A DNA stretch of 64,000 bases from Candidatus Nanohalococcus occultus. GTDB lineage: Archaea > Nanohalarchaeota > Nanosalinia > Nanosalinales > Nanosalinaceae. The notes beneath the pieces were generated by a model. The model worked only from the letters and a program-made list of their open reading frames with translations. It made no database searches and was not told where the DNA came from. The stretch is from contig NZ_CP104395.1 in the NCBI RefSeq assembly GCF_029207735.1, forward strand, positions 664,692-728,691, read 5' to 3'. Every line of letters starts with the position of its first letter. Positions within the stretch are counted from its first letter, which is position 1. The translations under genes and the position numbers were made by a program. Shown piece by piece: positions 12,373 through 61,880 of the stretch.

Positions 12373-12375
12373 ATT

Positions 12376-23299: not shown

Positions 23300-23783
23300 T
23301 ATACCATTACTTTAGATTCCGTAGTATTTCAAAATAAGCCTAATAAAATCTGCCCAGAGATTCACCACGTAGCGAAATCAGGTTCGATATTAAATACTCC
23401 TTTTGCGATTATAGTTATGACGCCTCCTCTCCCCGCCACCTCCTTAATTTCGCGAATAACCCTGCCGCCACGAATGTAGGCGAAGAATGCCTTATATCTC
23501 AATCTCATCTTCAATTGCTAATGAGACGTTTCGAACTCTAACCAGGATACCTTTTTTCTCATTGACTCTGCTAGGCAACGCATTTCAATAAGCACCTCAC
23601 TTGTCAAACCATTGATCGTATGAGTCGACCATAGGAAAATCCGGCTTCAAACTAAATGAAACGCCAAAAACCTCTTAACCAATAACAGAGCCTATTATCC
23701 ATCAATGGTAATTAATATTTGTTCAGAGATTTGTCTTTCTGTTTCAATAATCTTGGAGGGATGACGAACTTTATGTTGTCGTC
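23300..23783. other. 484 bp gap with a duplication junction and decayed sequence
   Basis: Bases 23300-23312 match the bases before the other Tat-leader gene (25002-25014), including the CTAAAG plus stop codon that ends the 1,391-residue fibre gene there. Upstream of that junction similarity is lost. A minus-strand ORF of 48 codons (23362-23508, start MRLRYKAFFAYIRGG) contains AGRGGVITIIAKGV, which resembles the GGLVMLIAPK segment of the Gly-rich paralogue and may be a relic. No other feature is visible. Confidence 0.45.
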
Positions 23784-25001: not shown

Positions 25002-25008
25002 TATACCA

Positions 25009-28000
25009 TCACTTTAGTTTTACCAGTATTTTATTCTTGTCTTTGGAGTTTTCGAGGGCGTTACCTATAGTGGTGCTTCTACAGTTTTCGTTGTGGGAGA
25101 TTATTTCTCGGAGTTCTTTGTCTTTGTTCTCCATTGGATCTATGATTTCACATTTCATCGCAGTACCTGGCTTCGATGACGGTACGAGTCGGTCTCCTCT
25201 TTGAATCTCTCCGTTTTCCTCGGTTACTTTGAGCGGCACCTTTCCTTCTAATGCGATCGGATAACCGGATTCTTCCTGGTTCATTACCTGGGAAGGATTG
25301 GATGATACGATACCGGTAACTGTTTCCTGATACCTCCCATCTGTTCTGACGACCGAATCATCTTTCTCTGTATTTATGGCTACAAGTTCTGCTTTTTCCA
25401 GTTCCTGTGGACTTGAGTACATCTCAGCCAGGTCTGCCCCGTTCGTCCAGATATTGCCCTCAACGGAAAGACTGTCGGCCACCGTGACATTGCCGGAAGT
25501 AGCCATTATATCGCCACCATTCATTTCCATATTACCGCCGTTGAGCTTCAGGTCTACCTGTGCGTTAAATGACCCTCCTGTGTTGGCGCTACCTAGCTCA
25601 ACAGTATTTGATTCATCTGCGTATGATAGAGGCCCTAGAGCCATACCGCCGTTGACACCTTCAGCGTAGTATCCAATCGCGTTTCCTTGTGCGTTCTGAC
25701 CGATAGCCATGCCGCCGTTGTCGGAACTGGCCTGTGAACCCACCGCGATAGAGTCTGCTCCCGCATAAGAACTTGATCCAACTGCGATAGCACTTGAACC
25801 ATTCGCATTCGAGCTTGATCCCAGAGCCAAGGCCCCAGTCGAGGTCCCTGTTGAACCATCATCTATACCTGCTTTCGCACCCCATCCAGCTGCTAGTCCA
25901 TAATTATCGTGTACTTCCGCAGAACCGCCTATTGCCTGGGAACCCACTCCTTCAACAACCGAAGCACCTGTCCCTATCACAATACCATCATCTCCTTGAC
26001 CGGAGGTATCAACTTGTGCATTTTTTCCTATTGCGATATCCTGTGTGTCCCCGGCGACGGTATTCGAGTTACCTAGGTAGATACCTGATGAGAACCGTAG
26101 CTGATCTAGACTGGTGACTGAACTAGAGTTCATATTCAGGTTTCCGTTTGGAATAGTTACCGCTCCTCCACCATCAAAACGGGCTATCTCGGTTGATCCG
26201 CCGTATATACTGAGGGCGTTAAGCGTTCCTCCAGTGTTTATATCACGGCTGTTCATATTGATGTCGTATACCGCAGTGTTTCCTTGGGCGAGAACCTCGC
26301 TTAGATCCTGGTTATCCGTATCTGTATCTGTATCTTCTTCGCAGTTACCGTTTCCGTTTACGAATTCATTAGAACCACAGTTCTGTAGGCCGCCAATATT
26401 AGTGATTCTGTTACCGCCCATCTCCAGATCCCCGGTTTCCAATGTGACGTTTCCAGCTCCTCCGCCATCGCCACTGATCGTCAGCCCCTGATTAACGTCA
26501 ATAGGAGAATCACCGTTGTTCGAGGTCATTGAAGCCACGTTGATATCGTTAACACTGATTATATCGCCGCTGCTCTGAAAGTTGATGGATCCGCTCAGTG
26601 TGCTTCCCTGAGTTCTTACCTCTTCCAAGGTCTGATCGTCGGTGTCCGTATCTGTCTCACAGTTACCGTTACCGTTCAGGAATTCATTCGAACCACAGCT
26701 TGTACCTGTGCTATCGACGATACCTCCTACTTCCCGCAGCGTGTTACCGTTTAGATCGGCTGCGCCGTTGAAGTTGACGTCCCCTCCGATGTCTACAAAC
26801 CGTCCTGCGTTCGAAGGATTACCGACATCCATCTCTCCGTCACTCCAGAGCCTGAACTGGGTGTCCGGTGTACTCTGGAAGTTCTGGGAGGTGTTAACTG
26901 ATGTTCCATCACCGTCACTTCTGACTTCGATCGCGAGATCTTCCCCGTCATCATCGGTCGCAATAAGAAGCGGTGCCGGCGAATCAGGATCGTTTACCGT
27001 GTTAAGAAGTCTAAGACCGTTTACATTACTTCCGTGATCTACAGTGGTCACGCCGTTAACTGTAGCGCTTCCGAAAGTGAACCCTGCTCCGTTTTGAATC
27101 TCGCTGTTATCAACAGAGTTATCGGAAATTTCATTGTCGGAAACAGAGCCGGAGACAAGATTCCCGGAGCCATCAAGGTCTCCAGCTGCGGAAAAATCAG
27201 CGATATTACCGGAACCGTCTAAATCATTCGCGTTATCGAAACTGGAGATATCTCCTGCCGAGTTAAGATCGGAAGCTGAACTGAAATCATTGATCGCTCC
27301 ACTGCCGTCTAAATCCGCAGCACCGCTGAAATCATTTATCGAGCCACCGCTGTTCAAGTCTGCGGCCGAGCTAAAGTCGTTAATGTTTCCTGAGGAATCA
27401 AGATCGCCGGCAGTACTCCAGTCAGCGTTTACCAAGGAATTACTGTTTAAATCTAGATCGGTCTCGAAGTACCATCGGTCGGTGCTGTTCTCAAAACCGA
27501 ACTCCTGGCTGAACTGACCGCTGCCAGCTTCCCGCGGCGCCATCCAAAGCCGCCCGGAGGACGTTGTACCAATCGCTAAACTGCCGTCACCGTTTTCAAT
27601 AGAGTTCACTGTACCTCCACTGTCCAGATTGTTCGCATTCGAGAAATCACTGATACTTCCTCCACTGTCTAAATCATTGGCTGACGAAAAGTCAGCGATA
27701 TTACCAGAAGAATCCAAATCATTAGCGTTATCAAAACTAGAAATATCACCCGCCGAATCAAGATCAGAGGCCGCACTGAAATCGTTGATTGTTCCCGCAC
27801 CGTTCAAATCGTTAGCGTTGTCAAAACTGGAGATGTCACCAGCAGAGTTAAGGTCGCTGGCACCACTCCAGTCCGCGTTTTGTATAACGTTTCCGTTCAG
27901 GTCTAGGGGTACGCTGCTGCCGCCTTGGCCAATACGGATTTCCCCATTCCCGCCGCCCGTAGAGCTTATCTCAAAGACATTGTTCCGGGAGCTGGTGTAT

Positions 28001-29184
28001 TCGTGGAAGACATAGTTACCGCCATCAGTAAGAACAAAATCCAGTTCAGGATCCCGCCCCTCTATAACCAAGTCGTTGTTAGCATAGTCGCTGGTTATTG
28101 AAGCCGGAGAACCTTTAGCGTTAGGGAACTCTAGCGAGGAGTTGACCGTTATCGAGTTAGCATCAGCAAGATTTCCTTGGTTCAAAACCTGTTCAAGGTT
28201 CTGATCGTCAGCAACCGTAGTATCCGTATCAGTATCAACCTCACAGTTACCGTTACCGTTTACAAACTCGTTGGCCCCACAGTTTTGAAGTCCGCCGATT
28301 CCGTTTATGTTGTAGTTATTCATGTTCAGTGCCGCATCCAGGTTAAGGGCATCGGAGTCATCGGCACTAAGTAAGACGTCTCCGCCCGGGTCTTGAATGA
28401 CAAATCTATTGTTATCATTCCCATCCATGTCTTGGTAAAGCACGAAGTCTCCACTGTTACCGCCGTATATATTCCCTCCTGCCATCTGGATATCGGTTCC
28501 TCCTGTGCTGTTACCATCACTTAATGTCTCGGAAAGAGTCTGGGTGTCTTCAACATCGTCGTTGCTGTTAACCCAGCTCTTGGTGGTAAAGGCCTGCCAG
28601 GAATCCCAGCCTCCGTTACTCCAACCGGAACGAATCCAGAGAGCGCCGTTGTCAGAGGTGTGATGGGAGACATACATCTGCATGATTCCCTGATTACCCG
28701 AACCCTCTGTGACAATTAGATGGCCGTAAGAGTAGGCCGAGGACGGCTGGTTGAGACTTGAGTTCAAACCACTTGAAATTGATACACCGTACATTCCTGG
28801 CTCAGTTAATGTGTTCCAGTCGGTGTTCTCCACCTGAGTGTTTTTATCGTTTAGAATATCATTTAACTGTTCGCCGTCAAGTAGGTCAGCGTCATCCGCG
28901 TAAGGTGCGGTGACACTTCCGCCGTTTTCCAATGTAATATCGTTCCCGCTGGTTCCCAGGTTCTGATCGTCGGTACCTGTGTTATCAGTGGCACAGTCGC
29001 CATCTGCCTGTAGAATCTCGTTACCGGAACACTGGGTTGAGGGCGTTCTGTCGGGCGGTATCTGTGCGGCCGTGGAAACTGAAAGTATCATTACAGCAGC
29101 TACCAGTAAAACCAGTGCCAAGACCTTGCTGCCTTCTAAATGCCTCATTCCGTGTTTATATTTCATCTTTGTTTGTTTATACAT
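25009..29184 (-). CDS. Giant fibre adhesin: knob, 15-residue repeats, YadA-like head, AE-type C-terminal domain
   Basis: 1,391 residues with a Sec signal at about 20-40. Residues 121-202 match pyocin-knob tail-fibre domains: TDWNTLTEPGMYGVS, then GHLIVTEGSGNQGIMQMYV, LWIRSGW and WDSWQAF. Three clear copies of the NEF-NGNGNCE/DTDTDT module follow. Two blocks of 15-residue repeats (xSxGxIxDFSxAxDL) and DNEISDNSVDNSEIQN units lie in the middle. About 1035-1200 resembles YadA/Hep_Hag head repeats (SIAVGSQAS, MAIGQNAQG, ALALGSSSNANG). The last 142 residues start ADLAEMYSSPQEL and contain VTGIVSSNPSQVM and VPLKVTEENGEIQRGD, a domain also ending a 1,692-residue paralogue. Confidence 0.88.
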   Translation of the reverse strand: MYKQTKMKYKHGMRHLEGSKVLALVLLVAAVMILSVSTAAQIPPDRTPSTQCSGNEILQADGDCATDNTGTDDQNLGTSGNDITLENGGSVTAPYADDADLLDGEQLNDILNDKNTQVENTDWNTLTEPGMYGVSISSGLNSSLNQPSSAYSYGHLIVTEGSGNQGIMQMYVSHHTSDNGALWIRSGWSNGGWDSWQAFTTKSWVNSNDDVEDTQTLSETLSDGNSTGGTDIQMAGGNIYGGNSGDFVLYQDMDGNDNNRFVIQDPGGDVLLSADDSDALNLDAALNMNNYNINGIGGLQNCGANEFVNGNGNCEVDTDTDTTVADDQNLEQVLNQGNLADANSITVNSSLEFPNAKGSPASITSDYANNDLVIEGRDPELDFVLTDGGNYVFHEYTSSRNNVFEISSTGGGNGEIRIGQGGSSVPLDLNGNVIQNADWSGASDLNSAGDISSFDNANDLNGAGTINDFSAASDLDSAGDISSFDNANDLDSSGNIADFSSANDLDSGGSISDFSNANNLDSGGTVNSIENGDGSLAIGTTSSGRLWMAPREAGSGQFSQEFGFENSTDRWYFETDLDLNSNSLVNADWSTAGDLDSSGNINDFSSAADLNSGGSINDFSGAADLDGSGAINDFSSASDLNSAGDISSFDNANDLDGSGNIADFSAAGDLDGSGNLVSGSVSDNEISDNSVDNSEIQNGAGFTFGSATVNGVTTVDHGSNVNGLRLLNTVNDPDSPAPLLIATDDDGEDLAIEVRSDGDGTSVNTSQNFQSTPDTQFRLWSDGEMDVGNPSNAGRFVDIGGDVNFNGAADLNGNTLREVGGIVDSTGTSCGSNEFLNGNGNCETDTDTDDQTLEEVRTQGSTLSGSINFQSSGDIISVNDINVASMTSNNGDSPIDVNQGLTISGDGGGAGNVTLETGDLEMGGNRITNIGGLQNCGSNEFVNGNGNCEEDTDTDTDNQDLSEVLAQGNTAVYDINMNSRDINTGGTLNALSIYGGSTEIARFDGGGAVTIPNGNLNMNSSSVTSLDQLRFSSGIYLGNSNTVAGDTQDIAIGKNAQVDTSGQGDDGIVIGTGASVVEGVGSQAIGGSAEVHDNYGLAAGWGAKAGIDDGSTGTSTGALALGSSSNANGSSAIAVGSSSYAGADSIAVGSQASSDNGGMAIGQNAQGNAIGYYAEGVNGGMALGPLSYADESNTVELGSANTGGSFNAQVDLKLNGGNMEMNGGDIMATSGNVTVADSLSVEGNIWTNGADLAEMYSSPQELEKAELVAINTEKDDSVVRTDGRYQETVTGIVSSNPSQVMNQEESGYPIALEGKVPLKVTEENGEIQRGDRLVPSSKPGTAMKCEIIDPMENKDKELREIISHNENCRSTTIGNALENSKDKNKILVKLK
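27166..27411 (-). repeat. 45 bp tandem repeat block B in the 1,391-residue fibre
   Basis: About five units of 15 codons, consensus xSxGxIxDFSxAxDL. Codons differ between units while the peptide is kept, so the array is old and under selection. Confidence 0.8.
27609..27870 (-). repeat. 45 bp tandem repeat block A in the 1,391-residue fibre
   Basis: About six units of the same 15-codon repeat, separated from block B by a non-repeat stretch containing GSLAIGTTSSGRLWM. Fixed 15-residue periodicity suggests a beta-solenoid or triple-stranded stem. Confidence 0.8.
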
Positions 29185-29187
29185 TTA

Positions 29188-31260
29188 CTAGTCGAGTGTT
29201 TTACAGACCACACCGTAGGTATCGTGCGATGTTGTACTGTCATCGTACAGGTAGGATGCCGCACAGGAACCACCTATCGAGCTACCCTGCATACAGTGTC
29301 CGTTATCATCAGTTATAGTGGATCTTATACCAGCCCCCCACCCCTGGTTGTCCTGTTCGTTGTCCCCTCCTGAGTAACCCCAGCAGACACGTCCAGGCAT
29401 ATCCGCCTCGTCAAACGCGATGCTTGGCGGACTCATCTCAATACCCCACATACCGCTGCCGAAGTTCCTGATACATGCTCCGCCATCACAGTTAGTAGTC
29501 CCTGAACCAGGAACAGTCATGGACCCAGAGCTTCCATTACTCATCCTGTAATCCCCTGTCTCCAGCGAGATCGAAGTCCAGAAGTAATCGGAGCTAGCAG
29601 CATACCTCGAATCCGCATACCCTCTTGGAACCGCATCATCATCACTGTTCGGATCAGCTACGTTCTCCACACGGTTCCCGCCAGCATCAACGTTGCCGGT
29701 GGCCGCCACATCATCCAGCTGAGTGTTATCATCCGTGAAAGTTGCTGAATTCCCGTTATCAATATCTATAGTGGTTTCTCCACCGCCGGCAGGATCGGCT
29801 CCAACGCTCAAATCCTGATCGTCGGCAACAGTTGTGTCTGTATCAGTATCAACTTCACAGTTTCCGTTTCCGTTTACGAATTCATTGGCGCCACAGTTCT
29901 GTAAACCGCCGATTCCGTTGATGTTATTGTTGTTTAACTCGAGAGAACCGTCTCTAATCTCTACCTGACCGCCGTTAACGGCAAAACCGACGCCCTCCGA
30001 TTTAGCGTTACCGGTTCCTGTACTTTCATCTACGCTGACATCGAATCCTCCGGATTCATCGAGTCTTACATGTGTTCCACCGGTACCGGCGACAATATTG
30101 TTGTTAGGATCGATACCGGATTTTATATTGAAGTTACCGGAACCGTCGTGGATTGTAATATACTGATCTCCATCGTCAAGGTTCAAATGATTGCCATTCG
30201 TGTCCAAAGGTGCGTTAAGAGTCACGCCGTTGAACGTAAAACTGCCGCCGTTTTGAATCTCGCTGTTGTCCACGGTGTTGTCCGCAATCTCATTGTCCGA
30301 GACCGAACCGGACGTCAAACTCCCGGATGAATCCAGATCGTTAGCCGCCGAGAAATCGTTTATACTTCCTGACGCATCTAGATCGCCGGCATCGCTCCAG
30401 TCCGCATTCGTGATCGGATTGCCATCCATGTTAAGTGTGCCGTTGTGGATTGTCTCTCCGACGTTGCTATCGTCGTTGCCGCCGGGATTCAGGTAAAGAT
30501 CTCCTGCCGGAATCAACCGTATATGGTCGTTGCTCGCATCGGCTCCGTCGTTCATCGTTCCTAGTTCAAGCCCGAAGTTCTCTCCGCTGCCATCAACGTC
30601 ATCGATCGCATTTATGTAACCGTAATCACTTCCCGAGTTTTCACCTGAACGGAAACGTATCTCTGAGTTTCCTCCATTAGGATTGTTGAAAGTCATTACG
30701 CGGCCTCCACGACCTGTTACAAGCTGGTTGAAATCAGCCACATCATTATTATTCATGTTTAAATTCCCGGTTTCAAGGGTTACGCTGCCGTCTCCACCAC
30801 TGTCACCGTCTACTGTAAAGCCCTGGTGGAAAAGAATATCGCTGTCGCCGTTGTTCGATGTTATACTTCCTACATTCAGGAAGTTAGCGCTGTTAACTCC
30901 GCCATTGCTCTGAAAGTCGAGGTCTCCGCTCATCACGTCGCCTCCGCGGTTGACATAACGGTCGTCGACGCTTCCGGTATCAAGTTCGTTGACTGAGACA
31001 GCTCCCGAGTTAATGTTACCAGAGTTTACAATATTCGAGCCGCCGAGGTTGGAGATACCGATTATCGGGTTACCGCTCATATCTATAGTTCCTGTTACAT
31101 TGATGTTCTGGGAGGAGAACGGAGTTATTCTTTCAATATTTTGAAGCTCCGAGGCAGATACCGTTGAAACTACGAGAATTAACAAAGCGGTTAACGCTAA
31201 AAGTTTCCGGTGTTTCGGCTCTAGTCTAATTGACACGTGTTTATCTCCCAGGGTTTTCAA
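29188..31260 (-). CDS. Secreted fibre protein, 690 residues
   Basis: The start is TTG at 31260 or GTG at 31236; the signal helix is LLALTALLILVVSTVSA. Body units include GSVSDNEIADNTVDNSEIQN and LNLDDGDQYITIHDG, one NGNGNCE/DTDTDT module (after GIGGLQNCGANEF) and the fibre motif VPRGYADSRYAAS. The C-terminal 120 residues contain YDDSTTSHDTYGV and five cysteines (CDGGACI, CWGYSG, CMQGSS, CAASYL, VVCKTLD), which looks like a distinct disulfide-rich tip. It is 3 bp upstream of the 1,391-residue gene. Confidence 0.85.
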   Translation of the reverse strand: MKTLGDKHVSIRLEPKHRKLLALTALLILVVSTVSASELQNIERITPFSSQNINVTGTIDMSGNPIIGISNLGGSNIVNSGNINSGAVSVNELDTGSVDDRYVNRGGDVMSGDLDFQSNGGVNSANFLNVGSITSNNGDSDILFHQGFTVDGDSGGDGSVTLETGNLNMNNNDVADFNQLVTGRGGRVMTFNNPNGGNSEIRFRSGENSGSDYGYINAIDDVDGSGENFGLELGTMNDGADASNDHIRLIPAGDLYLNPGGNDDSNVGETIHNGTLNMDGNPITNADWSDAGDLDASGSINDFSAANDLDSSGSLTSGSVSDNEIADNTVDNSEIQNGGSFTFNGVTLNAPLDTNGNHLNLDDGDQYITIHDGSGNFNIKSGIDPNNNIVAGTGGTHVRLDESGGFDVSVDESTGTGNAKSEGVGFAVNGGQVEIRDGSLELNNNNINGIGGLQNCGANEFVNGNGNCEVDTDTDTTVADDQDLSVGADPAGGGETTIDIDNGNSATFTDDNTQLDDVAATGNVDAGGNRVENVADPNSDDDAVPRGYADSRYAASSDYFWTSISLETGDYRMSNGSSGSMTVPGSGTTNCDGGACIRNFGSGMWGIEMSPPSIAFDEADMPGRVCWGYSGGDNEQDNQGWGAGIRSTITDDNGHCMQGSSIGGSCAASYLYDDSTTSHDTYGVVCKTLD

Positions 31261-31331
31261 GTGCGTTAAGGAACTACAGTGTTCCCTGAAAAGTTTTTCT
31301 CTCCGCTTGTTTATAGGTCTTCACCAGAGGA

Positions 31332-32204
31332 TTACTGAACGTAGATCGATCCCTGTACCGTGCCATTGGACCGCACCAGGATCGCATCATAATACGTTAT
31401 CGACTCCGGTACGACAGTCCACGATTTACCGGCGGGAAGCGTAAAACCTTTTAACTCGGATTCAAAGGTCATCTCAAGCGGACCGGAGGCGTTGTTGACA
31501 AACCTGACACCATCACCGCTTTTTATCGATGCCCGGGATGGTTTCGCAAGCCTTTCATTCAAGAATACTTCGACAGTCTCTCCTTCAACTTCCGGAGGCT
31601 GACGGTCCGGAAGCGAGATTTCTTCGAACTCCGAGTTCTCCTGCTCGTTAGATGTACTATCAGCACCAATAGTTGGAAGATTCAAAGCCGGCAAGCTAAA
31701 GGAAGGAACCTGTACCGAAGGCGTCTGTACCGAAAGACCGTCTTCAGGCACGTAACGCGGGCCGTAAACCACGGCCGCCGAGAAAAAGAGTAAAACCAAG
31801 ACAGCAATCCCCGCCGGTTTTCCGTAAGTGCCAGCAACAGAAACCATCCGAGAAACCACCGTACCCAGCCGCTCTCTGAAACCCGGTCCCTGAACCTTTT
31901 TCTGACCTTTATCCGACTCAGATCCAGCGTCTCCGGTTTCACTGCTTTCCGAGGCCTCTACATCCGCCAGCTTCCGATCCATTTTCTTATCGAAAACTTC
32001 TTGGGTGCTTAGATCGACTTTGCCGCCAGATAAACCATCTTCTTCCTCTTTTTGATCGTCTAGATTGTTTTCCCGTTCCTTGATGACTTTATCCACTATT
32101 TCCGGGCTGTAGCCTTTGTTCTCAAGACTTGAACGGATTCTTTCCGGCTGTATGCCGTCATCGAGTTTCTGTCCGACCCAGTTTTCCAGTTTTTTACTAT
32201 CCAT
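31332..32204 (-). CDS. Membrane-anchored protein with a cupredoxin-like outer domain
   Basis: 290 residues. An N-terminal helical region (KKLENWVGQKLDDGIQPERI) resembles short domains that bind partners. An acidic linker follows, then a membrane helix at about 127-147 (AGIAVLVLLFFSAAVVYG). A Pro/Ser/Gln linker leads to a C-terminal beta-domain of about 80 residues with SGDGVRFVNNASGPLEMTF and TLPAGKSWTV, cupredoxin-like but lacking an obvious Cys-His copper site. Its own TATA box is at 32226-32235. It may anchor or sense the adhesins; inference only. Confidence 0.75.
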   Translation of the reverse strand: MDSKKLENWVGQKLDDGIQPERIRSSLENKGYSPEIVDKVIKERENNLDDQKEEEDGLSGGKVDLSTQEVFDKKMDRKLADVEASESSETGDAGSESDKGQKKVQGPGFRERLGTVVSRMVSVAGTYGKPAGIAVLVLLFFSAAVVYGPRYVPEDGLSVQTPSVQVPSFSLPALNLPTIGADSTSNEQENSEFEEISLPDRQPPEVEGETVEVFLNERLAKPSRASIKSGDGVRFVNNASGPLEMTFESELKGFTLPAGKSWTVVPESITYYDAILVRSNGTVQGSIYVQ

Positions 32205-32225
32205 ACCTACAGTTTCGAGAGTCTG

Positions 32226-32235
32226 GGATAAAAAG
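32226..32235 (-). promoter_or_regulatory. Possible internal promoter in the surface-protein cluster
   Basis: The minus strand reads CTTTTTATCC in a 42 bp gap, centred 27 bp before the ATG at 32204, suggesting a second transcription start for the downstream fibres. Confidence 0.35.
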
Positions 32236-32246
32236 TTCTCCAGTTT

Positions 32247-35200
32247 TTACCGCGCGTAGAAGTACGGGTTCTCGAACTCTAGTGTGTGACCTCCATCAGG
32301 AGTGAAGTCTCCTTCTCCCCAGTGTGCTATACGTCCGTTACCGTCCCTGAAGCCGAGGTGTGTTGGGATATCTCCATCATCTAAGCTCCTCCAGTCAATG
32401 TAGTCTGTCCAGGTACCTCCTGAACCGTGGTTGGAGCCTAGAACATAGTCGCCGCCGACCGAAGGACTTGGATCGGATGAAGGGAATATAGTCATACATC
32501 CACCGTAGACACAGTCATAGTCGCTTGGATGAGCGACCGCGAAGACATCTGTTATCGGCTCATCGATGTCATCCGTGTACCAGTCTCCGACGTAGTAAGT
32601 ACCGTCTTCCGTTGTATCGGAAAGTGCCTGGATCTGAGCCGGATGAATAGGATTGCCGTTAGCACTGTAATAGTCCCATACCGCAGTCTTGCCCTCATAG
32701 CTGGACATAAATGCTTTCCCTATGGACCATGTCTCGTTGTTACCTGTATTTGAGACCCATCCCTGACCGTTGCCGAAGTTGACTTCGCTTCCGGACTCCC
32801 ACATGAATGAGTTTTCTCCAAACGCCCATCCCTTATCACCGCTTACAGCACCATCCTTAGTAGTGTAAAGCCGTGTCCATCCACCTCCGTTCTCTCCCAT
32901 CTCACAGTAGACTTCGAAAGGCGAGTAACCGCCACTGCCATCGGGATCGATCCGGAAGACGCCGCTATGCGTCGAATCCTGCCTTTCTTTAATCTCCTGA
33001 CAGTCCCTTGGAACATCGTACCGCTGCCGACTGCTTGAGACACCGGCCGAACCAGAGTTCATAACATTTTTGACACCTCCGTCAGACAGCGCGTAAGGAT
33101 ATATACGCACATCATCTATCTTTCCCTCGAAAGGTAGAGAGCCGCTATCAGATATCCGTGTGCTGCTACCAGAATCTCTTACTGATACACTGACAGACTT
33201 TGAATCTTGTAATACTCCGTTCTGATATATTTTCAATGTAGAGCCATCATAAGTACCGGTTAAATGATGCCACTCATTCTGTGGGATAGTGTAACCTCTC
33301 ACTATATGGGAGTCAGAGCCATCATGAATATACATTGAACCTTGTGCATTCCCTCCATCAGCAAACAAAAGAGTATCATAAGTTCCTGCGTTAAGAATAT
33401 CTGCTCTATCAGCAGGACCTTTTCTTTTAACCCAGGCGGAAATAGAGAGCTTGTTATTGTTATCAAACTGCTCAATCCCGTCTATGCTGACATAATCATC
33501 GTTTCCATCGAATTCAAGGGCAGAACCTCTCTTACCCGCAGTAAGGTTCGCACCATATACAGTTCCATCATTATCGCCCGCAGAATCGTACGTCTTGTTG
33601 CCGTAGACAGAATCAAAGCTCCATTTGGCAGTGGGGCCGGCAGATCCATCTTTTCTGTCTCTACCGTTCGTATAAAGATTCCAGACCTCGGTTTCAGACA
33701 GGGCGCGGTCATGTATTTTAGCCTGATCAAGGCTTACTTTTCCAAACGTAGAAGCGCCTGAAATCCTATAAGAGCCGCCTAGTTTCAACCCCCTAGTAGT
33801 TGAGAAATCGTTCAAATCCGCCTTACTATCCGTATCTGCGAGCCTTCCATCAACATACAGTTTGGCTTCTTTAGCCGGAGCGTTGAAGACGCCTACAACG
33901 TGATGCCATTTCTTGTCAATCGATGTTTGTACCACTAAACCAGTTCCACTCCCATCTCTGGCACCAAACCTTATATCACCCGCATAAAGGTCAAACCCTG
34001 ATGAATACGTAGTATGTCCTTTGATCATAACCCCGCTAGTCGCATCTTCGCGTTTTATCCAGGTAGAATACGTGAAATTATCAGAGTTAGTGAAATTCAA
34101 GACCTCATCATTCGGTATGTCTAGAGAATCATCACTTCCGTCAAAACCAAGACATTTGCCAGACTTACAGTTCTCAGAACCTTTCACTTCTGGCCCGTTC
34201 ACCAGTTCTCCGTGATTAGCTTCTCCGCTTTCATCGACGGCGACTTTCCCATCCGTACCCGACGGACAGCTAACAGTATCGGAGTTTCCACAGGTTTCAA
34301 CTCGGTCAAAGGATTGGTCAAGTACAAGTCCTTCTTGAAGGCCTGTAGAAGCGGATTCTGTAGAAGAGCCTATGTTAGACTCTCCTTTACGGTAGAGCTG
34401 TTTGACTTGGGCGTTAGAAGCAGCGTAAGGATAGATTTTCACCTCATCAATTTCTCCTTTCCAACCATAATCCTGATCAAACGTACCTGAGTTCCTCCAG
34501 GCATTGTAACCTACAACAAGCTGTCTGCTCGATTTAAAATAAGGTCCAGCGAAAGAGGTTTGATCTAGTAATTCCCCGTCCTGATAGAATTTTACCGTTG
34601 AATTATCATAAGTTCCTACAACATGAGTCCATCCTCCACTAATCAGGCTACCGGATGCTTCAACGTATCCGTTTCCGTTCCCTCTACCAACTCTGAAAGA
34701 ATCAGGTCTTAGACCAAATCCTTCATCCGGAGCGGTTATCTCATCGGAGACTAATGAGTCATCATTGTAGTTGCCTTCTGTCTTATACCAAGCCGAAACC
34801 GTGAGACGGGCCGGTTTGTCACCGACACTGTCAAGGCCAGGTTCAACTCTATCATCAAAACCGTCAAACTCAAGCGCTTTCCCTATCACACCATCGACTC
34901 TTTGTGGACCCACAGTTTCATCCGGCTGAAAAATCCCTGTATTACCTTCGCCAGAGTGATCGTAGGCCTTATCACCTCCATTACGGTTGAACCGCATATC
35001 CAGAACCGCTCCCCTAGATTCAATATTTTCCGCCTGTTGAATTACCTCCTCCTGGGTCAGCGGCTGGTTGAAGACTTTGAACTCATCGATCCGTCCCTCC
35101 CAGTGATTACTTGTTATATCGTCTGTGCCTTCAGTGTTACCTCCTAGGACAACAGGACGGGCGTTATGGCTCCAGCCGGAGTTGTAGCTGAAGTTTTGTT

Positions 35201-37621: not shown

Positions 37622-37627
37622 ATTCCT

Positions 37628-45581: not shown

Positions 45582-45582
45582 C

Positions 45583-48500
45583 TCAGCCACCGGCACGCAC
45601 CCCGTCTGTAAGCGCATCGTTCCTGACCTGTTGTGGGGTCAGTGCGACAGGATAGAACTTCAAACTGTCAAGGCTTCCCTGAAGTGAGTTCGTGCCATCA
45701 GAGTTCGCAGCACCTATCCATAAAGGAATATCTGTCGGAGTGTAAGCCCAGCCTGTTTCCTGATTCGTCTTCTGACCATCAAAGTAAGTTGTGACCGTAC
45801 CGTCCTCGATAGTCACCGTAAAGCTATGCCATTCATCGAGAGCATTGTCGGAAGCATTAGCTATGATTATACGATTCTCCCAGCCGTCCGGATCGGCAAA
45901 ATAGAATTTGAGGATTTTATCATTCTCTGGATTATCCGCCGGATTGCCTCTCTGAACCGAGTATCCTCCAGTACTGTATCCTCCTTTTTCCAGCACTCTC
46001 TTCCAGTTTTCCACCGAAGTATCCTGTAGCCTGATGTGGCCGGTGATAGTGAACTCTCCGGTATTGGAAACTCGGAGACTGTCCTGATGCGGTACCTCTA
46101 TCACATCGTTTTCCCCGTCGAATTTCAGCGAAGACCTACTGTCCTGTAGCTGATATACCGGATCGCCCATGTTCGGGATCTCTCCATTGTTTTGTTCGAC
46201 AGAGTCCCAGAATCTCTGTTTGCCATCGCCTGAATACCATGTCAGCAGGTTGTTCCACGCCTCATCGGCATTTGGATAATCAGAAGGCGTAAAAACAGCA
46301 TTACTTCCAGGATGGAAGTAGTATCCTCTTCCAACTGATTCAATTCCTACGAACTTACTGTCCGAAGTATCTCCGCTCGTGCTATTGTATGCCTGTAAAA
46401 CATTCACGTCAAAGCCGTTAGCCCATCTATAATTTTGAGACGTAGACGAGATAGTCCCCGGAGCAGCAGGTAAAACAGAGTTGTTAACACTGTAATCATA
46501 GGAAGTGCTGCTCCAGCAGCTATAACCAAGATCAGAACATCTCTCCTGACCGCCTCTGGAGTATAGGCCATCTCCACTGTACTGAGAGCAGCTATTCTGA
46601 TAACTTTCCCAGCTGTCACCGTCCCATGCCTTCGGCTTCCAAAGGCCTGCTCCCCATGTACCCACCCAGAGACCTCCATCACTCATGAACTCTTTCATCT
46701 CGCTGTAGACATCGTGTTCGCTGCCTTCACCGTTTACAGCGTTACAAAAGTCTTCAGACTTGTCAAAGGCCGGATAACGCTCACCATCTGGGAACACTAT
46801 GATCTCACATGAACGCCAGCCATCCTGTGTTATATCTCCGACTTGGACGTACCTGGTTCTCCAACCCTCTGAGTCCAAAGTATTTTTGAGCGAAGTGGCT
46901 GACGGCCCCTGCCATCCGCCATCACCAAACGAACCCTGATCTAAAATACACACACGAGGAGCGGCATCGAACCTGTAGCTGGCGACAGGGCCAGGCATAC
47001 TAACGGAACGATCTCTTTCATCTGTGTAAAGACTCCAGATTTCTTTATCTGAAAGTGAGCGGTTATAGATTTTGAACTCATCGATTTTACCATCCAAGTG
47101 TTCGTCATAATTTGGCTGGGATCCGATGTACAGCAGTTCATTGTTAGCCAACAAGCCCTCGGCCACGGATTTGGAGGCAACCTGTTTGCCGTTTAGGAAA
47201 AGACTGAGGTTCTGTCCGGAGTTAACCCGTCCAACTACGTGTGTCCATTCTCCAAGCGGTACATCTCCGCCTCTAATTATAGTGTTGTTTTCCGCTACCA
47301 AGAGCCATGCCTCTCCGTCAGTTTCTATCCTCATCCGGTAGGCGTTGTTACCGCCTTTAGCCAGTATGTTGCCGCTACTTGTACCGTAGGAATCGAGTTT
47401 GACCCATGAGGAAAAAGTTGCTTCATCGGAGAGATCCAGGCTCGAACTGTCCGAGACTTCAATATGATCTCCGGAGCCGTCAAAGCCAGCGCAGCCACCT
47501 TTCAAGCATCTACTGGCTTTCTGCTCGACCGTAGTATCTATTAATTCGCCGTGATTCGTGTTTCCGCTTTCATCAATCGCTATCTCTCCCGTCATACCGG
47601 AAGGACAGGTTACTGTATCTTCTTGGCCGCAGGTCTCGATGTTATCAAAGTTTTGATCGATTACAAGACCTTTTTCCAGGTCTTTCTGAGCGTTAGCGCC
47701 TACAACCGATTTCCTGTTTGAATAAGCTTCTTTTATCCTGTTTTGACCTAAAGCAAACGGCAGGATCTTTACCTCATCGATCTTACCGGTAAAGTAGTTG
47801 CCAGCGTTGTAACGTCCAATGTATGTCTTTGAGTTTGAAGGTACGTCTTGTAGGGCGCCGGAGTTCAGAAGCTCGCCGTCCATGTATACCTTCCCTGTCG
47901 ATCCGTCGTATGTAACCACTATGTTGTGCCAGCTGCCGTCGTGGAAGTCTGCTTTAGCGGAGAAGACAGATGAACCCCAGGTGTTCGATACTTCGATATC
48001 TCCGCCGTTAAGGTACAGTACATGCTGGCCGTTATCGCCGCTGACAACATTTCCTGCGCTGGAATCCGTTGTCTTCACCCATACGGATTTAGTGTAACTT
48101 GTCTTTGGCACCACATCAGAGCCGAGATCGATATACCTGTCCGAGCCATCAAAGTTCAACGCGTTTCCGCTGATGCCTTCCGCCCATTTAGGAGCGGACG
48201 AGCTACCAGTGATAACTCCGTGGAACCCGTTACCGGAAAGATCAACCACGCGGTCACCGCCTCCCGAATCAAACCGCATGTCAACAACGGCTCCTTGAGA
48301 TTCGATCCCTGCTGTCTCTATTATTTCTGAGTGCGTTAAGGCTCTATCGAAGAACTTGAAATCATCTATCCTGCCGTTGAAGTACTCATTATTGTTCGTT
48401 ACTCCCAAATTTACATCCTGTACGGACATATCGACGGAGCCGGGCATATCTTTTGCTTCTATCACACCATCAACGAGTATTCGGCGGTGCGTTCCATTGT

Positions 48501-50265
48501 ACCAAACCGCTACATGATGCCAGTCTCCATCGTTTACCTGTAAACCCGAAGTTGAAAGATCGTTACTCCAGAAATAATGACGTATATCCGAGCAATCATT
48601 CGAGGTTCTGAACGCATTTACGTTATTGCCCGAACCCCAGTTACCGTATCCGAAAATCCCTCCGCTCGTAGAACAGGACTCAGGAACATTTATCCAGGCC
48701 GAAGCAGTAAATGAATCATCGTTTTGAGCTAGATCCGCGGTCTCCGGTAAGTCAATGTAGTCATCACTGCCCTCAAAGCTGTAACAGCGTCCGTTCCGAC
48801 AACTGTTCGCATACTCTTGGACAGCCCCGCTCGGCAGACCGTGATTCTCTTTTCCGCTTGTATCATAGACGTGTGTAGTATTTTTCTCATCGAAACCGAT
48901 ATCCATGACTTTCGAGGACTTCTGTTCGATAGATATATCATCGATGTACCATCGGTTTCCAGGTCCGACACCGAATTTACAGATGCTGTATCCCGTTCCA
49001 AAGTTATCACTGTATGTATCGGAGGCGCCGGAGTTATCCTGCGACCAAGAAAAGTTTACCTGACCCGTACGAGTATCCAAATCCATTTTAACGTGTGTCC
49101 ACTGTTCGTAGGCTGCGCCAGGGTTGTTGAGGTATGCCTCCGAGCCTAGAACATCGGCTTCGAACTCAGGATTCTCCGTGCCGATCCCTGCGAGGTTTGT
49201 CCCATCACATGCTTGGACCCAGAAATTTCCATCGTAGTTCGGCACGGATTTCTCCCAGTACTCTCCTTCAACCGTTATCTCACCTCTCAAAGGTTTATCG
49301 AAAGTTTTAATCATCCCATCCGGATAGAGATCTCCCGAACCTTCCTGTAAAAATCCTTTTGCGCCGGACTCGCCTCTGCCAGCGATTTCACAGGTACGTG
49401 ACTGGCATTCCGAGCTGTATGACCAGCCATTCTCTCCATCTATCGAGCTTCCTGCTCCGTAGTTTTCAAAGCCTTCGCTGAAAGCATAGTTTATAGAATC
49501 AGATCCTCCCATAGACCATGAGCCTCTGTTGTACAAAGTACGTATCTCCGAGATCGAGAGGTTACGGGAATAGATTTTCAGTTTATCGATCTCTCCTTTG
49601 AGAGCGCCGTTATCAGATGCGCCGTTGTATCCAACGCCCAAGTAGTTTAGATCGATGTTTCCGGAGGCTGAATCGGTACCGACGTTTTCTCCATCGATGT
49701 AGAAGTATGGTTTACCGTTCCCGTCCATTGCGATCGCTACGTGTATCCAGCCGTTCTTGTTGAACCGGAAGTTATCCGAGCGTTTCTGGCTGCCGCTGTT
49801 GTCCTCGTAACGTAGCTGAGCCATACCGTTGCCTTGATCGGCGAATGTGACGTATCCATCCCATGATCCTGCGGCGTTCGCGGAGAAAAGACCCGGCGAC
49901 ATCTCATGGCCCGGGCTTCCAAGATCTTCCGAGTTAACCCAGACCGAGACAGTCGTATTTGGCTCAAGTCTAAGATTATTACCTGTCAGATCGAGATTAT
50001 CGTCCGAGCCGTCAAAGCTTAACGCTTTACCCTCTAAACCTTCAGTCCACGAGGCACCGTCAACCATAATGTCTCCGCCGCCAGCATAGTTTCTAACCGA
50101 GTCACCGGCACCCTTATCGAAACGGTACTCGGCTACAAGCTCGGATTCAGAACCCGAGGTCAAAAATGACTCCGAAGCCAAAGCCACTCCGGCAGCTAGA
50201 ACCAGTAAAACAACCAATACGGTGGCCAGCTCTGTTTTACGGAGAGAAAAACTTATTTTATCCAT
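45583..50265 (-). CDS. Giant five-LamG adhesin with an amidotransferase-like domain
   Basis: 1,560 residues. Signal helix about 12-30. LamG at about 40-250; a different jelly roll (GITVEGEYWEKSV-like region) at 260-450; LamG at 450-660, 665-880 and 890-1110. Residues about 1115-1345 look like a class I glutamine-amidotransferase/BPL-N fold: RVCILDQGSFGD, RSCEIIVFPDGERYPAF, EFMSDGGLWVGTWGAGLW, with eight Cys nearby, but no sure nucleophile. A last LamG spans 1360-1560. The CPSG-GEIAIDESG-NHGEL linker is shared with the other two giants. It overlaps the next upstream gene by 8 bp. Confidence 0.87.
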   Translation of the reverse strand: MDKISFSLRKTELATVLVVLLVLAAGVALASESFLTSGSESELVAEYRFDKGAGDSVRNYAGGGDIMVDGASWTEGLEGKALSFDGSDDNLDLTGNNLRLEPNTTVSVWVNSEDLGSPGHEMSPGLFSANAAGSWDGYVTFADQGNGMAQLRYEDNSGSQKRSDNFRFNKNGWIHVAIAMDGNGKPYFYIDGENVGTDSASGNIDLNYLGVGYNGASDNGALKGEIDKLKIYSRNLSISEIRTLYNRGSWSMGGSDSINYAFSEGFENYGAGSSIDGENGWSYSSECQSRTCEIAGRGESGAKGFLQEGSGDLYPDGMIKTFDKPLRGEITVEGEYWEKSVPNYDGNFWVQACDGTNLAGIGTENPEFEADVLGSEAYLNNPGAAYEQWTHVKMDLDTRTGQVNFSWSQDNSGASDTYSDNFGTGYSICKFGVGPGNRWYIDDISIEQKSSKVMDIGFDEKNTTHVYDTSGKENHGLPSGAVQEYANSCRNGRCYSFEGSDDYIDLPETADLAQNDDSFTASAWINVPESCSTSGGIFGYGNWGSGNNVNAFRTSNDCSDIRHYFWSNDLSTSGLQVNDGDWHHVAVWYNGTHRRILVDGVIEAKDMPGSVDMSVQDVNLGVTNNNEYFNGRIDDFKFFDRALTHSEIIETAGIESQGAVVDMRFDSGGGDRVVDLSGNGFHGVITGSSSAPKWAEGISGNALNFDGSDRYIDLGSDVVPKTSYTKSVWVKTTDSSAGNVVSGDNGQHVLYLNGGDIEVSNTWGSSVFSAKADFHDGSWHNIVVTYDGSTGKVYMDGELLNSGALQDVPSNSKTYIGRYNAGNYFTGKIDEVKILPFALGQNRIKEAYSNRKSVVGANAQKDLEKGLVIDQNFDNIETCGQEDTVTCPSGMTGEIAIDESGNTNHGELIDTTVEQKASRCLKGGCAGFDGSGDHIEVSDSSSLDLSDEATFSSWVKLDSYGTSSGNILAKGGNNAYRMRIETDGEAWLLVAENNTIIRGGDVPLGEWTHVVGRVNSGQNLSLFLNGKQVASKSVAEGLLANNELLYIGSQPNYDEHLDGKIDEFKIYNRSLSDKEIWSLYTDERDRSVSMPGPVASYRFDAAPRVCILDQGSFGDGGWQGPSATSLKNTLDSEGWRTRYVQVGDITQDGWRSCEIIVFPDGERYPAFDKSEDFCNAVNGEGSEHDVYSEMKEFMSDGGLWVGTWGAGLWKPKAWDGDSWESYQNSCSQYSGDGLYSRGGQERCSDLGYSCWSSTSYDYSVNNSVLPAAPGTISSTSQNYRWANGFDVNVLQAYNSTSGDTSDSKFVGIESVGRGYYFHPGSNAVFTPSDYPNADEAWNNLLTWYSGDGKQRFWDSVEQNNGEIPNMGDPVYQLQDSRSSLKFDGENDVIEVPHQDSLRVSNTGEFTITGHIRLQDTSVENWKRVLEKGGYSTGGYSVQRGNPADNPENDKILKFYFADPDGWENRIIIANASDNALDEWHSFTVTIEDGTVTTYFDGQKTNQETGWAYTPTDIPLWIGAANSDGTNSLQGSLDSLKFYPVALTPQQVRNDALTDGVRAGG

Positions 50266-53200
50266 TTACAGATACCCCGCCGTTGTTCATAACGGTTTGA
50301 ATCTGTTCGCGGCCGAGAGCGTAAGGATAGATTCTGACATCATCAATAGTTCCGTTAAAGTAGGCCTGCGGATTCTGGTTGTTGTAGACCATTGCTCCGA
50401 TATAAACATTACCTGATGTGTCTCTGCTTATCAGACCTGTTGAACTGTCTTCAGCCACGAGTCGACCGTCAAGATAAAGTTTCAAACTGTTTTCTGGCTG
50501 GTTTAGCACGAAAGCTCCGTTATGCCATTTACCTGGCTCTACGTCACCTCCGTCAAGCGTGTAGTCCTGTACACCATCGATGTTCTCACTGTAATATTCG
50601 AGTTCCGAGTCCCTTACCATCATCCCCCAGTCACCGTTACCTGCACCCCACTGTTTTTCCAAGATTCTCTGAGTATTAGATGACGAAGGCGTTTTGAACC
50701 ACGTCGAGGCTGTTATCGTAGCATCCGGGCCGCCGCTGAGCGTAGAGGAATCCGGTATTCGGACGTAATCATCAACGCCGTCAAACTCAAGTGCCTTGCC
50801 TCTTTCAGTATCCACATACCGCGGGAAGTTTCCATTGGAATAAGTCAGCAGCCCTTTTTCCGCGGCGAACCATCCGACATCTTCATTGTTATGTCCATTA
50901 CAGCTATCTCCGTTTTCGGCTTCACAGTACCGGACTTCTGCGCCCGATGTATCAACGTTTCTAACCTCATCTATCAGCAATCCCTGAGCGCCGTTCACAG
51001 ATAAAGTCGTTGCCGTGACTACAGGTGTCTCGGAGAAAGCAGTTGAGAACGACTGTGGCTCCCAGTTAGAGTTTCCAACAACCGTGCCTGTGGAGCCAAC
51101 TTCGAAATGCTGTTCGAAAGGAACGTTCCCGGGTTCAACGGCAACCCATCCAACCTCCTCGAAAGGATGGTCCTCACATCCATTCAAAGAGTTCTGATAA
51201 CAGATACCGGCAGTGAAACTAGAGTTCGAATAAGAAGTTACACGGGCCTCAACAGGATTGTTTCCGTTATCAGAGTTAACATTGGCCATAACTACCGGCG
51301 CAGACGAAAAACTTTCCGAATAAGAAACCGTGTTAGTATTAAAATCCAGGTTCCCGTCAATCTCGAAGCTCCCTGCCTCAATACCCGGTATATCTTCAGT
51401 CGCATTAGCATTAATCACCATGTAACCGACTCTTTCCGTTCCATGAGTGTCACATCCTTCCGCCTGCCCGGCCTCCGACTCACATACACGCATCTCCGCC
51501 CGATTAGACCGGACGTTTTTGGCTTCAAAGGAAAGAGCAGGTTCTCCGTTATGAGTGTTGGTAGTACCTACAACCACAGGATCAGCGTAGCTTCTCTCAA
51601 ACCTAACCGTCTTCCATTCTCCGTCACTGGTATTGAAGGTTCCTGCCTCACCGAGAAGATTCAAATCACCGCTATTGCCTTCACCGGAAACATCTCTTAG
51701 AGGGGAGGACTCAGTCTGTACAGGATAATACGCTGCCGGACCTGCCATCCTGCCAGCCGAATGATCTCTTCCCTTAGTGTAAAGACTCCAGACCTCTTGA
51801 TTTGAAAGAGAGCGGTTGTATATTCTGAATTCATCTACCGGGCTGTCCCAATGAGAACCTGCCTCAGGACGAGCTCCGATAGCGAGACTGGAGTTTGTAT
51901 TACCTATCGTGCCAACACTCGCAGCGTTAACAAGTTCGCCGTTTCTATAGCCATAGGCAGTATCGTTCACAAAATGGTATACAAAATGCGTCCACTCATC
52001 AGGAGTATAACTTATTCCTACGGCGCCTTCCCATGACCCATCATCTGCTCTACGCTCATAGCTCAATGTGTTCGCATTACTGGCTCTAAGGACACTCCAG
52101 CCTGCGCGATCAGAGTCCTCAGTCGATACAAGCCGGTTATAGTTTCCGCTGTAGCTTTCCGGTTTCGACCAGAAAGAAACCGTGTAGTTAGGAGTTCCGT
52201 TGAAACCAAGATTTCCATCCATAACGACCTTATCATCTCCCTCAAAACCAAGACATTTACTGACTTTACAGCTTCCAGCTCCTCTTTCAACCGGATCACT
52301 CACGATCTCCCCGTGATTCGCTCTTCCGCTTTCATCGACGGCGACCTCACCGTTCATACCCGACGGACAGCTAACAGTATCAGACCCTCCACAGGTCTCC
52401 ACATGGTCGAAGGTCTGGGAGAGAACCAAGCCTTTCTGAAGCCCAGTAGAGCTTGAACCAGAGGAAGAGCCAACACGAGACTTGCCCTGTTCGTACAGCC
52501 GATCAATCTTAGATTTAGAAATGGCATAGGGGTACATCCGAACATCTTCCAATAAACCATCCAGCCAATAAGTAGTATTTTGATAACCCAGTAAAAATCG
52601 CGATGAACCCTCATCTAACTTACCTGATAATTCCTTTGAGAACTCCTCATTACCATCTACAAACAGTTTCAGATGATTGCCATCATACCTAACTACAAAA
52701 TGCGCCCATCTGTTCTTTATGCTGGGAAAATTCGGCGTATGACGGCTTTCATTTCCTTCTATAACAAGATCAATTAGAGCCTCATCTGATTTAAGATATA
52801 ACCTGTTATTTTCAACACCATTCAGACCAGAGTATATTCCTGCCCAATCGCCCGGATCCGTTCCGTACCTTACTCCATCTCTAAAATAGATCCAAAAAGA
52901 CAAAGAATACCCTGTTTCTAAATTAGTGTAAGGCTCTTCTACCTCAACCATATTACTTCCCTTATACCCATCAAATTCCAACGCATTCCCTGTCAAACCG
53001 TCGACCCAGCTAGGACCAGCAGATTCATTCGGCTGAAGTGTACCGTGGTTGTCTCTCTCTGAGTAGTCGTAGACTTTATCGCCTCCGTTTTGGTCAAATC
53101 GGAGGTCGAGAACAGTACTAAGGTCATGCAAGCCCTGTGTTTCTTCGATTATTTCCCGTTGGGATAGGCCGCGGTTGAAGATTTTGACTTGGTCGATTTC

Positions 53201-54505
53201 ACCTTCAAAATGATGGCTTTCTCCATCATTACATTGAGCAGCTATACAGAAGTCATACGAGTAACCAGCACTTAAGTCGCCGGATTCAACTAATTTGCCA
53301 TCAACGTATAATCTTCCTTCATCTGTCCTAGTTACACCTGTAATGTGGTGCCATTCTCCTTCTGTGACATTATGAGTCAGTAAAGGATTATTTGTATCCA
53401 TGTAACCATTTCTGCCCATTACAGCGATTTCTCCGTCTACGTATTTTAGGCCCGATCCCCAGTCTTCCCAATGAGATCCTCCCGAATCAAATCTGCCGGC
53501 TATGGCCGAATCCTGACTGCCAACATCCGTCTTAATCCATGCCATAATAGTTACCGGATTTGAAGAATCGTTCCGAGAATCATCTGAAGGATACTCCGGA
53601 ACCTGAATCTCTAGATAATCATCATTCCCGTCAAAGCTGTGGCACCGACCTAGTTTACAGTTTAAAGCAGGCTCCTGTGTCACGCCGCCCATTTTGATTC
53701 CATGGTTGTTCTGTCCTGAGGTATCGAAAACGTGTGTGGCGTTTTCCTCCTGGAAGCTGATATCTAGAATCTGAGATGGCTCTTCAGAGACACCGTCGTT
53801 TCCTACTCGCCAGGATCCCTGGTTGTAAAGTGTTTTCACATAAGACCGATTCAATGCCTGTGTGTATACTTTCACAGCATCCAGGGAGGAGGTTGTCCCG
53901 GAGCCTAACGTTATCTGATTGGATTGGAATCCTGGCCATTCGGTGTGTTCTCCTATAAGTTCTCCGTTCTTGTAGGTTCTTCTGATACCGCGGGAAGATG
54001 ATAGTACAAGTGTGTAGTGGTTCCAGCCGTTTTCTACGGAGGTCTGAGGCGCATCGTAATTATCGCCGTTCTGCCTTATGACCATATGTATATTGCCGTT
54101 AGCGTATTCCGGAGTTATCCTGCCGTTACTGCCGTCAATATTTACGAAGTCACTCCAGTTGTCGGTCGTACCGTCCTCACGCATCCAGAAGCTTAGTGTA
54201 ATTTCCGAGGTATCGACGTCAAGAGATCCTGTAGCAGAGCTGCTACCATCAAAACTGAGAGCCTTTCCTTCAACTCCACTCGTCCAGTCCGCTCCGTTGA
54301 CCGCTAAATCGTTGTCGCCAGCGGCATCTACAACCGTATCTCCAGCACCCTTATCGAACCGGTATTCGGCGGCTAGCTGGCCGGATTCAGAGGAGCTGAA
54401 AAATGATGTAGCTGAAATACTGCCTGCGACGGCAACCGCTACAACTAGTAAGAATACAGCCGTAAACGCTCTATGTTCTACCGCTTGCTGAATATTTTCC
54501 CGCAT
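50258..54505 (-). CDS. Giant five-LamG adhesin with three H-type-lectin-like repeats
   Basis: 1,415 residues with a signal helix at about 14-33. Four LamG domains reach about residue 930, then three tandem repeats (about 935-1190) with a shared pattern: F-ending strand, PVV-x-x-T/N, E-A-x-V-R/S and a D/E-VGW-x-A/V-x-E closing strand (HGTERVGYMVI, FEEVGWVAVEP, NEDVGWFAAEK), each with two Cys. They resemble H-type lectin domains. A fifth LamG ends DDVRIYPYALG. A weak TATA-like TTCTTAACTA about 25 bp upstream may be the start of the 30 kb unit. Confidence 0.87.
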   Translation of the reverse strand: MRENIQQAVEHRAFTAVFLLVVAVAVAGSISATSFFSSSESGQLAAEYRFDKGAGDTVVDAAGDNDLAVNGADWTSGVEGKALSFDGSSSATGSLDVDTSEITLSFWMREDGTTDNWSDFVNIDGSNGRITPEYANGNIHMVIRQNGDNYDAPQTSVENGWNHYTLVLSSSRGIRRTYKNGELIGEHTEWPGFQSNQITLGSGTTSSLDAVKVYTQALNRSYVKTLYNQGSWRVGNDGVSEEPSQILDISFQEENATHVFDTSGQNNHGIKMGGVTQEPALNCKLGRCHSFDGNDDYLEIQVPEYPSDDSRNDSSNPVTIMAWIKTDVGSQDSAIAGRFDSGGSHWEDWGSGLKYVDGEIAVMGRNGYMDTNNPLLTHNVTEGEWHHITGVTRTDEGRLYVDGKLVESGDLSAGYSYDFCIAAQCNDGESHHFEGEIDQVKIFNRGLSQREIIEETQGLHDLSTVLDLRFDQNGGDKVYDYSERDNHGTLQPNESAGPSWVDGLTGNALEFDGYKGSNMVEVEEPYTNLETGYSLSFWIYFRDGVRYGTDPGDWAGIYSGLNGVENNRLYLKSDEALIDLVIEGNESRHTPNFPSIKNRWAHFVVRYDGNHLKLFVDGNEEFSKELSGKLDEGSSRFLLGYQNTTYWLDGLLEDVRMYPYAISKSKIDRLYEQGKSRVGSSSGSSSTGLQKGLVLSQTFDHVETCGGSDTVSCPSGMNGEVAVDESGRANHGEIVSDPVERGAGSCKVSKCLGFEGDDKVVMDGNLGFNGTPNYTVSFWSKPESYSGNYNRLVSTEDSDRAGWSVLRASNANTLSYERRADDGSWEGAVGISYTPDEWTHFVYHFVNDTAYGYRNGELVNAASVGTIGNTNSSLAIGARPEAGSHWDSPVDEFRIYNRSLSNQEVWSLYTKGRDHSAGRMAGPAAYYPVQTESSPLRDVSGEGNSGDLNLLGEAGTFNTSDGEWKTVRFERSYADPVVVGTTNTHNGEPALSFEAKNVRSNRAEMRVCESEAGQAEGCDTHGTERVGYMVINANATEDIPGIEAGSFEIDGNLDFNTNTVSYSESFSSAPVVMANVNSDNGNNPVEARVTSYSNSSFTAGICYQNSLNGCEDHPFEEVGWVAVEPGNVPFEQHFEVGSTGTVVGNSNWEPQSFSTAFSETPVVTATTLSVNGAQGLLIDEVRNVDTSGAEVRYCEAENGDSCNGHNNEDVGWFAAEKGLLTYSNGNFPRYVDTERGKALEFDGVDDYVRIPDSSTLSGGPDATITASTWFKTPSSSNTQRILEKQWGAGNGDWGMMVRDSELEYYSENIDGVQDYTLDGGDVEPGKWHNGAFVLNQPENSLKLYLDGRLVAEDSSTGLISRDTSGNVYIGAMVYNNQNPQAYFNGTIDDVRIYPYALGREQIQTVMNNGGVSVNG

Positions 54506-61849: not shown

Positions 61850-61880
61850 CCATTAAAGCCGGAGGCCGAAATTAGAAACT

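Follow-up and report, generated by a model that had tools for sequence, protein, structure and literature searches.

The DNA analyzed here (hereafter, the window) is a stretch of 64,000 nucleotides, G000:C1:664692-728691, from Candidatus Nanohalococcus occultus SVXNc, whose genome (G000) is one contig of 948,351 bp. Between the genes for RNase J and GatD, it carries a surface-adhesion island, whose products are likely to grip glycans of the Haloferax host of this archaeon or of the matrix that surrounds the host; we put the probability of this reading at about 60%. The domain content of the island, the linkage of its genes, and its site between RNase J and GatD are solid. A preliminary description of the sequence had already read these genes as a surface-adhesion cluster that would suit a DPANN ectosymbiont, and this idea is supported by the domains, leaders, and fold matches of the proteins, as well as by linkage of the genes in relatives. 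The same description knew of no such system, a claim that fails. The core operon, with a proposal for host attachment, was published in 2023 for the LamG/TAA-like operon of SVXNc [PMC10266531]; that paper describes the operon found in the window, proposes for it the same role in fixation to the host, and presents microscopy of SVXNc cells attached to Haloferax. In the text of it that was consulted, the RNase J-GatD site and its empty form, tatA and the Tat carriers, the lectin-like propeller, and the phage-type C-terminal domain do not appear. Consequently, what is new is a longer run of genes, the insertion site with its empty form, the phage-type domain, the propeller lectin, and the link between tatA and export by twin-arginine translocation (Tat), rather than the headline itself.

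How DPANN symbionts recognize their hosts is an open question. If the proposal is right, the locus is known in a strain that can be cultivated and has an empty counterpart in a sibling that lives on the same host species, which allows a direct comparison between cells with and without it. In addition, the published view of an inactive Tat system in SVXNc would be challenged, and the fiber genes would suggest that cellular symbionts use virus-type modules for contact with surfaces.

Positions are given in window coordinates, genes lie on the minus strand unless otherwise indicated, and SVXNc_ locus tags were assigned by protein size and gene order. As initially described, eleven minus-strand genes are packed together: ten open reading frames (ORFs) from 54505 to 25009, spaced by -35 to +71 bp and overlapping at five of the nine internal junctions, followed by a Gly-rich ORF with a Tat leader (23784-25001). 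However, the extent first given was too short. The co-directional run continues from 57532 down to 17818, which adds fiber genes at 55275-56831 and 20017-20712, tatA, tatC, and an MNT/HEPN pair. The biggest internal gap of this run, 484 bp (23300-23783), has no long ORF on the strand of the genes. Together with a divergent pilin-like operon, the run occupies the 43.5 kb (43,528 bp) that separate RNase J from GatD. Co-orientation by itself is ordinary when genes are densely packed throughout a genome, but the conservation of the neighborhood across genera goes beyond chance.

The adhesins are acidic (isoelectric points of 4.0-4.7), and their export leaders are N-terminal hydrophobic segments called from hydropathy alone. 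Three giant LamG proteins had been predicted, and each indeed contains five Laminin_G_3 stretches above the cut-off (E 9e-103, 6e-108, and 5e-95) as well as a leader-like segment. The first (50258-54505) has a weak H_lectin match in addition (E 0.0024, below the cut-off), the second (45583-50265) has the five LamG stretches, and in the third (32247-36440) these are followed by a fibrinogen-C-like end (Fibrinogen_C, E 4e-8). Furthermore, the guess that a neighboring protein with a C-terminal membrane helix (36437-37621) is a propeller agrees with a structural model of moderate confidence, which has a predicted local distance difference test score (pLDDT) of 75 and an input alignment of two sequences. 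Foldseek places this beta-propeller closest to the PLL lectins of Photorhabdus (E from 3.6e-10) and then to sialidases, with TM scores of at most 0.70 by target length. Thus, the protein may be a membrane-anchored lectin resembling PLL. The likeness is one of fold; sequence identity is low, and the window protein differs in having a membrane helix.

Five fiber proteins lie within the packed block: 43902-45617 (571 amino acids, aa), 42697-43905 (402 aa), 37628-42706 (1692 aa, the longest, corresponding by size to SVXNc_0803), 29188-31260 (690 aa), and 25009-29184 (1391 aa, corresponding by size to SVXNc_0798). None of the five has a Pfam match above the cut-off. Their assignment as fibers is upheld by sequence that they share with one another and by parts that match families related to phage fibers, or homologs thereof, such as a weak match of the 690-aa protein to Phage_T7_tail (E 0.017). 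Nearly all of the Cys residues in the fibers are paired, many of them within a recurring C-x11-C module that is found, for example, in the 571- and 402-aa proteins; nine copies of the module are 71-85% identical in DNA and could possibly serve as substrates for recombination. Of the two fibers outside the block, the 518-aa protein (55275-56831) is recognized by an N-terminal hydrophobic segment and its similarity to the others, and the small secreted one (20017-20712, 231 aa) has a motif like that of phage tail fibers (weak PHROG tail-fiber match, E 0.0012).

The two longest fibers have in common a C-terminal domain of ~150 aa (37631-38074 in the longest) that is homologous to the C-termini of phage fibers. 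Viral contigs contain at least 573 relatives of this domain, several of them with matches to PHROG tail-fiber families. The window domain itself gave no tblastn match among INPHARED phages at E 1e-3; a search that used a viral-contig homolog as the query retrieved 30 phage records, in most of which the product is listed as a hypothetical protein. Similarly, no match to the PDB was obtained with the sequence of a long fiber, and a profile search gave only weak ones (E ~0.07). An AlphaFold model of the domain as a single chain (pLDDT 81) resembles the C-terminal domain of phi29 gp12, the base of the phi29 head fiber, and phage capsid decoration proteins; these are matches at the level of the fold, with E values from 6e-5 to ~1e-2, and with 3suc and 3gqh at TM scores of ~0.6. 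The phage proteins matched by the domain are trimers, and consequently the two longest fibers probably form trimers as well. Peptidase_G2 has no match in the window domains, and its matches in their viral relatives (E 0.002-0.008) are below the cut-off. The likeness to phi29 gp12 and to the Peptidase_G2 phage fibers, which are tail and neck fibers with an intramolecular chaperone at the C-terminus, lies in a homologous or fold-similar C-terminal domain that follows a long repetitive fiber sequence; in contrast to the phage proteins, the SVXNc fibers bear leaders and are cellular.

One fiber, that of 1391 aa, also has repeats like those of the YadA head (PF05658, E 1.5e-4, 22.5 bits compared to a cut-off of 25), a feature of YadA-type trimeric autotransporter adhesins. 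However, the outer-membrane anchor found at the C-terminus of YadA has no match in Pfam scans, and the C-terminus is instead the phage-type domain. Membership in the trimeric autotransporters (type Vc) is thus rejected. The MSCRAMM and pyocin-knob assignments of the published paper were not recovered by the Pfam scans either and are not thereby refuted. The block is also unlike the SPEARE-type giant proteins, which reach ~9,000 aa and have a VirB4-like ATPase; the largest window product has 1,692 aa, and no ATPase match was found among the window adhesins scanned.

Genes that are scattered and unlinked in relatives would have spoken against a common apparatus. Instead, the adhesins are linked in six related genomes (G003, G006, G007, G009, G012, and G020). 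Fibers are clustered with at least one of the LamG, propeller, DsbA-like, or cupredoxin-like genes in all of these except G006, which, like G004, has a shorter fiber cluster. In addition, SVXNc, G003, G004, G006, G007, G012, G020, and G023 have a pilin-like operon that points away from adhesin genes or from DsbA-like genes. The RNase J-GatD interval is a presence/absence locus whose content varies. It holds adhesins in G003 (24.7 kb), G006 (11.2 kb), and G007 (a 62.8-kb interval that is annotated in part, so that the adhesin block may be smaller), which makes four filled genomes with SVXNc. In six others (G002, G008, G009, G010, G015, and G017), the two genes stand head-to-head, 115-132 bp apart; the adhesins and tatC of one of these, G009, are located elsewhere, at ~354-376 kb. 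A tree of RNase J and GatD nests SVXNc among the empty-site genomes, so the island must have been lost repeatedly or have arrived repeatedly. One of the empty sites is itself unusual: RNase J-GatD occurs twice in tandem, partly truncated, at G017:C7:695850-700462, which could be an effect of assembly.

Although the published paper reports only tatC and terms Tat "likely inactive" [PMC10266531], tatC (21156-21845; PF00902, E 8.8e-53) is adjoined by tatA (21872-22057; TIGR01411, E 2.8e-13), which scores 49.2 bits, 4.7 under the cut-off of 53.9, and starts at an internal ATG of an ORF that extends to 22195. The same pair is present in G006. The Tat leader noticed earlier on the Gly-rich protein beyond the fibers (23784-25001) is sound (TIGR01409, 22.6 bits compared to a cut-off of 16.7), and leader and Gly-rich part form one chain. 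A second, short Tat-leader protein or "carrier" (22964-23299; 25.4 bits with TIGR01409, and recognized by an alignment of the leader module) is followed, 11 bp 3' of it, by the start of a Gly-rich protein that lacks a leader (22170-22952) and has an in-frame stop 6 codons upstream of its start. A 90-bp direct repeat of 91% identity (23240-23329 and 24942-25031) spans the starts of both Tat-leader genes and is a sign of recent duplication. Only three Tat leaders in the genome exceed the cut-off, two of them in the island; the third, on a protein that looks like a lipoprotein, lies outside, so that Tat is not reserved for products of the island. Among 28 genomes, the Tat-leader module (E < 1e-6) and tatC are both present in six, tatC alone in two, the module alone in one, and neither in 19, a co-occurrence (Fisher p 0.0005) that is indicative only, given that the genomes are related, that some are incomplete, and that some also supplied sequences for the module alignment.

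An arrangement in which a carrier precedes a leaderless Gly-rich or LamG ORF, with a spacing of -1 to 11 bp, is found in the window, twice in G009, and in G006; in a further case in G009, the two are 494 bp apart. Several Tat-leader genes in G014, G020, G006 (L040), and G009 have no such partner. We tentatively propose, from the gene arrangements, that the local TatA-TatC exports leaderless Gly-rich or multi-LamG adhesins that ride on the short carriers, so that assemblies would be folded inside the cell and exported whole, from an island that would be gained, lost, or moved between species. The leaderless window protein would then be a candidate Tat hitchhiker. Bacterial hitchhiker complexes such as PaoABC are known [PMC4273604], and, as in the window pair, one partner has a Tat leader and the other has none; however, their cargo consists of cofactor enzymes, whereas the cargo here would be adhesins. 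Another explanation, to which we assign a somewhat better chance that still falls short of even, is that the pairs reflect mere translational coupling or a frameshift fusion, with the leaderless ORFs either staying inside or being fused to their carriers. The close spacing of the four pairs fits this idea, as does G003, in which a leader part, a linker, and propeller-like repeats with a similar YWDG-W ending constitute a single chain. Nevertheless, the partner frames open just 0-6 codons ahead of their start codons, a span in which a frameshift is difficult to accommodate. In addition, the partner in the window has a GAGGAG-type site ahead of its own ATG.

Taken together, these results lead to a model in which most of the products would leave the cell via Sec-type leaders, and a smaller set, comprising the Tat-leader proteins and possibly leaderless riders too, would exit through TatA-TatC. 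The multi-LamG proteins and the membrane-held propeller lectin would bind glycans, the two long fibers would end in a trimerizing, chaperone-like domain of phage type, and the adhesins, perhaps assembled together, would grip glycans on Haloferax or in the matrix around it. Several points weigh against this model. The 484-bp gap leaves a single transcript across the whole run unsupported and so weakens the claim of a single operon. The propeller, modeled from just two sequences, provides moderate evidence. The ligands of LamG and lectin folds may be free polysaccharides. Finally, the sibling symbiont BNXNv (G008) lives on the same Haloferax host species, yet at the thresholds used it lacks the fibers, tatC, the DsbA-like gene, and the pilin operon, although it has 40 LamG matches; this argues that the block is not required for attachment to Haloferax. 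It also lends some weight to a different, less probable explanation, that polysaccharide of the environment or of the consortium (xylan, glycogen, or matrix) is what the proteins bind, to feed or anchor the cell, and that the host is held by other means. Matches of the LamG/ConA-like, pentaxin-like, and sialidase-like kinds are common in polysaccharide binding, and SVXNc, according to the published account, was obtained from a consortium that degrades xylan and possesses further candidates for attachment, such as archaella and the giant SVXNc_0300 protein [PMC10266531]. However, no hydrolase or transporter is recognized in the block. Furthermore, phage-type fiber tips usually bind cell surfaces. 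The many viral-contig relatives of the C-terminal domain and the tail-fiber PHROGs could instead mean that the block is what is left of a provirus or of a tail module, but this we consider highly improbable: the fibers bear their own leaders, their neighbors are cellular, other genera likewise have fiber genes interspersed among those for LamG, propeller, and Tat proteins, and capsid, portal, and terminase matches are absent among the proteins scanned, which did not include every window ORF.

A secreted DsbA/thioredoxin-like protein (56927-57532; weak thioredoxin Pfam match, E 0.03) is linked to adhesins in relatives and has two Cys residues that are conserved in an alignment of seven homologs; with no CxxC, a role as a thiol oxidase is unsupported. 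An acidic protein with a single transmembrane segment (54569-55234) has no Pfam match. The membrane protein at 31332-32204 (transmembrane segment at residue 130) had been called cupredoxin-like. The term stands as a description of its sequence pattern but not as one of a copper protein, and a type-1 copper site is ruled out, since the outer domain has neither His nor Cys; the protein recurs near adhesins in G003, G007, G009, and G012. The flanks, recognized by anchor searches, are a GatD-like gene (62660-63961, plus strand), a Glu-tRNA amidotransferase subunit by sequence resemblance, and an RNase J-like beta-CASP nuclease (17818-19131). Next to the latter lies the MNT nucleotidyltransferase/HEPN pair (19291-19976; PF01909, E 1.6e-12, and PF05168, E 3.6e-22). 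Other small toxin-antitoxin-like genes, which resemble PIN genes, are also found near the edges of adhesin blocks in G003 and G009 (L036 18098-19678 and L030 17068-17577), and such genes may stabilize the island.

The divergent pilin-like operon consists of five genes (57608-62627, plus strand) with weak DUF7288 and DUF7289 matches and a LamG domain (E 7.8e-13) in the gene at 59688-61304. A second pilin-like protein with a LamG domain is encoded at L170 565-3131 (G000:C1:739.6-742.1 kb), directly 3' of a gene resembling the membrane platform protein of archaella and Tad systems, and the two cases suggest that there are LamG-bearing pilins. Beyond the island, 8982-17314 contains a group of genes whose sequences are similar to those of a Glu/Gln-tRNA synthetase and of UvrC, UvrA, and UvrB of the bacterial type. 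At 7785-7949 (plus strand), a 165-bp Rfam match to tRNA (51.5 bits), missed by ARAGORN, has a length that suggests an intron, in keeping with the published report that many tRNAs of SVXNc contain introns [PMC10266531].

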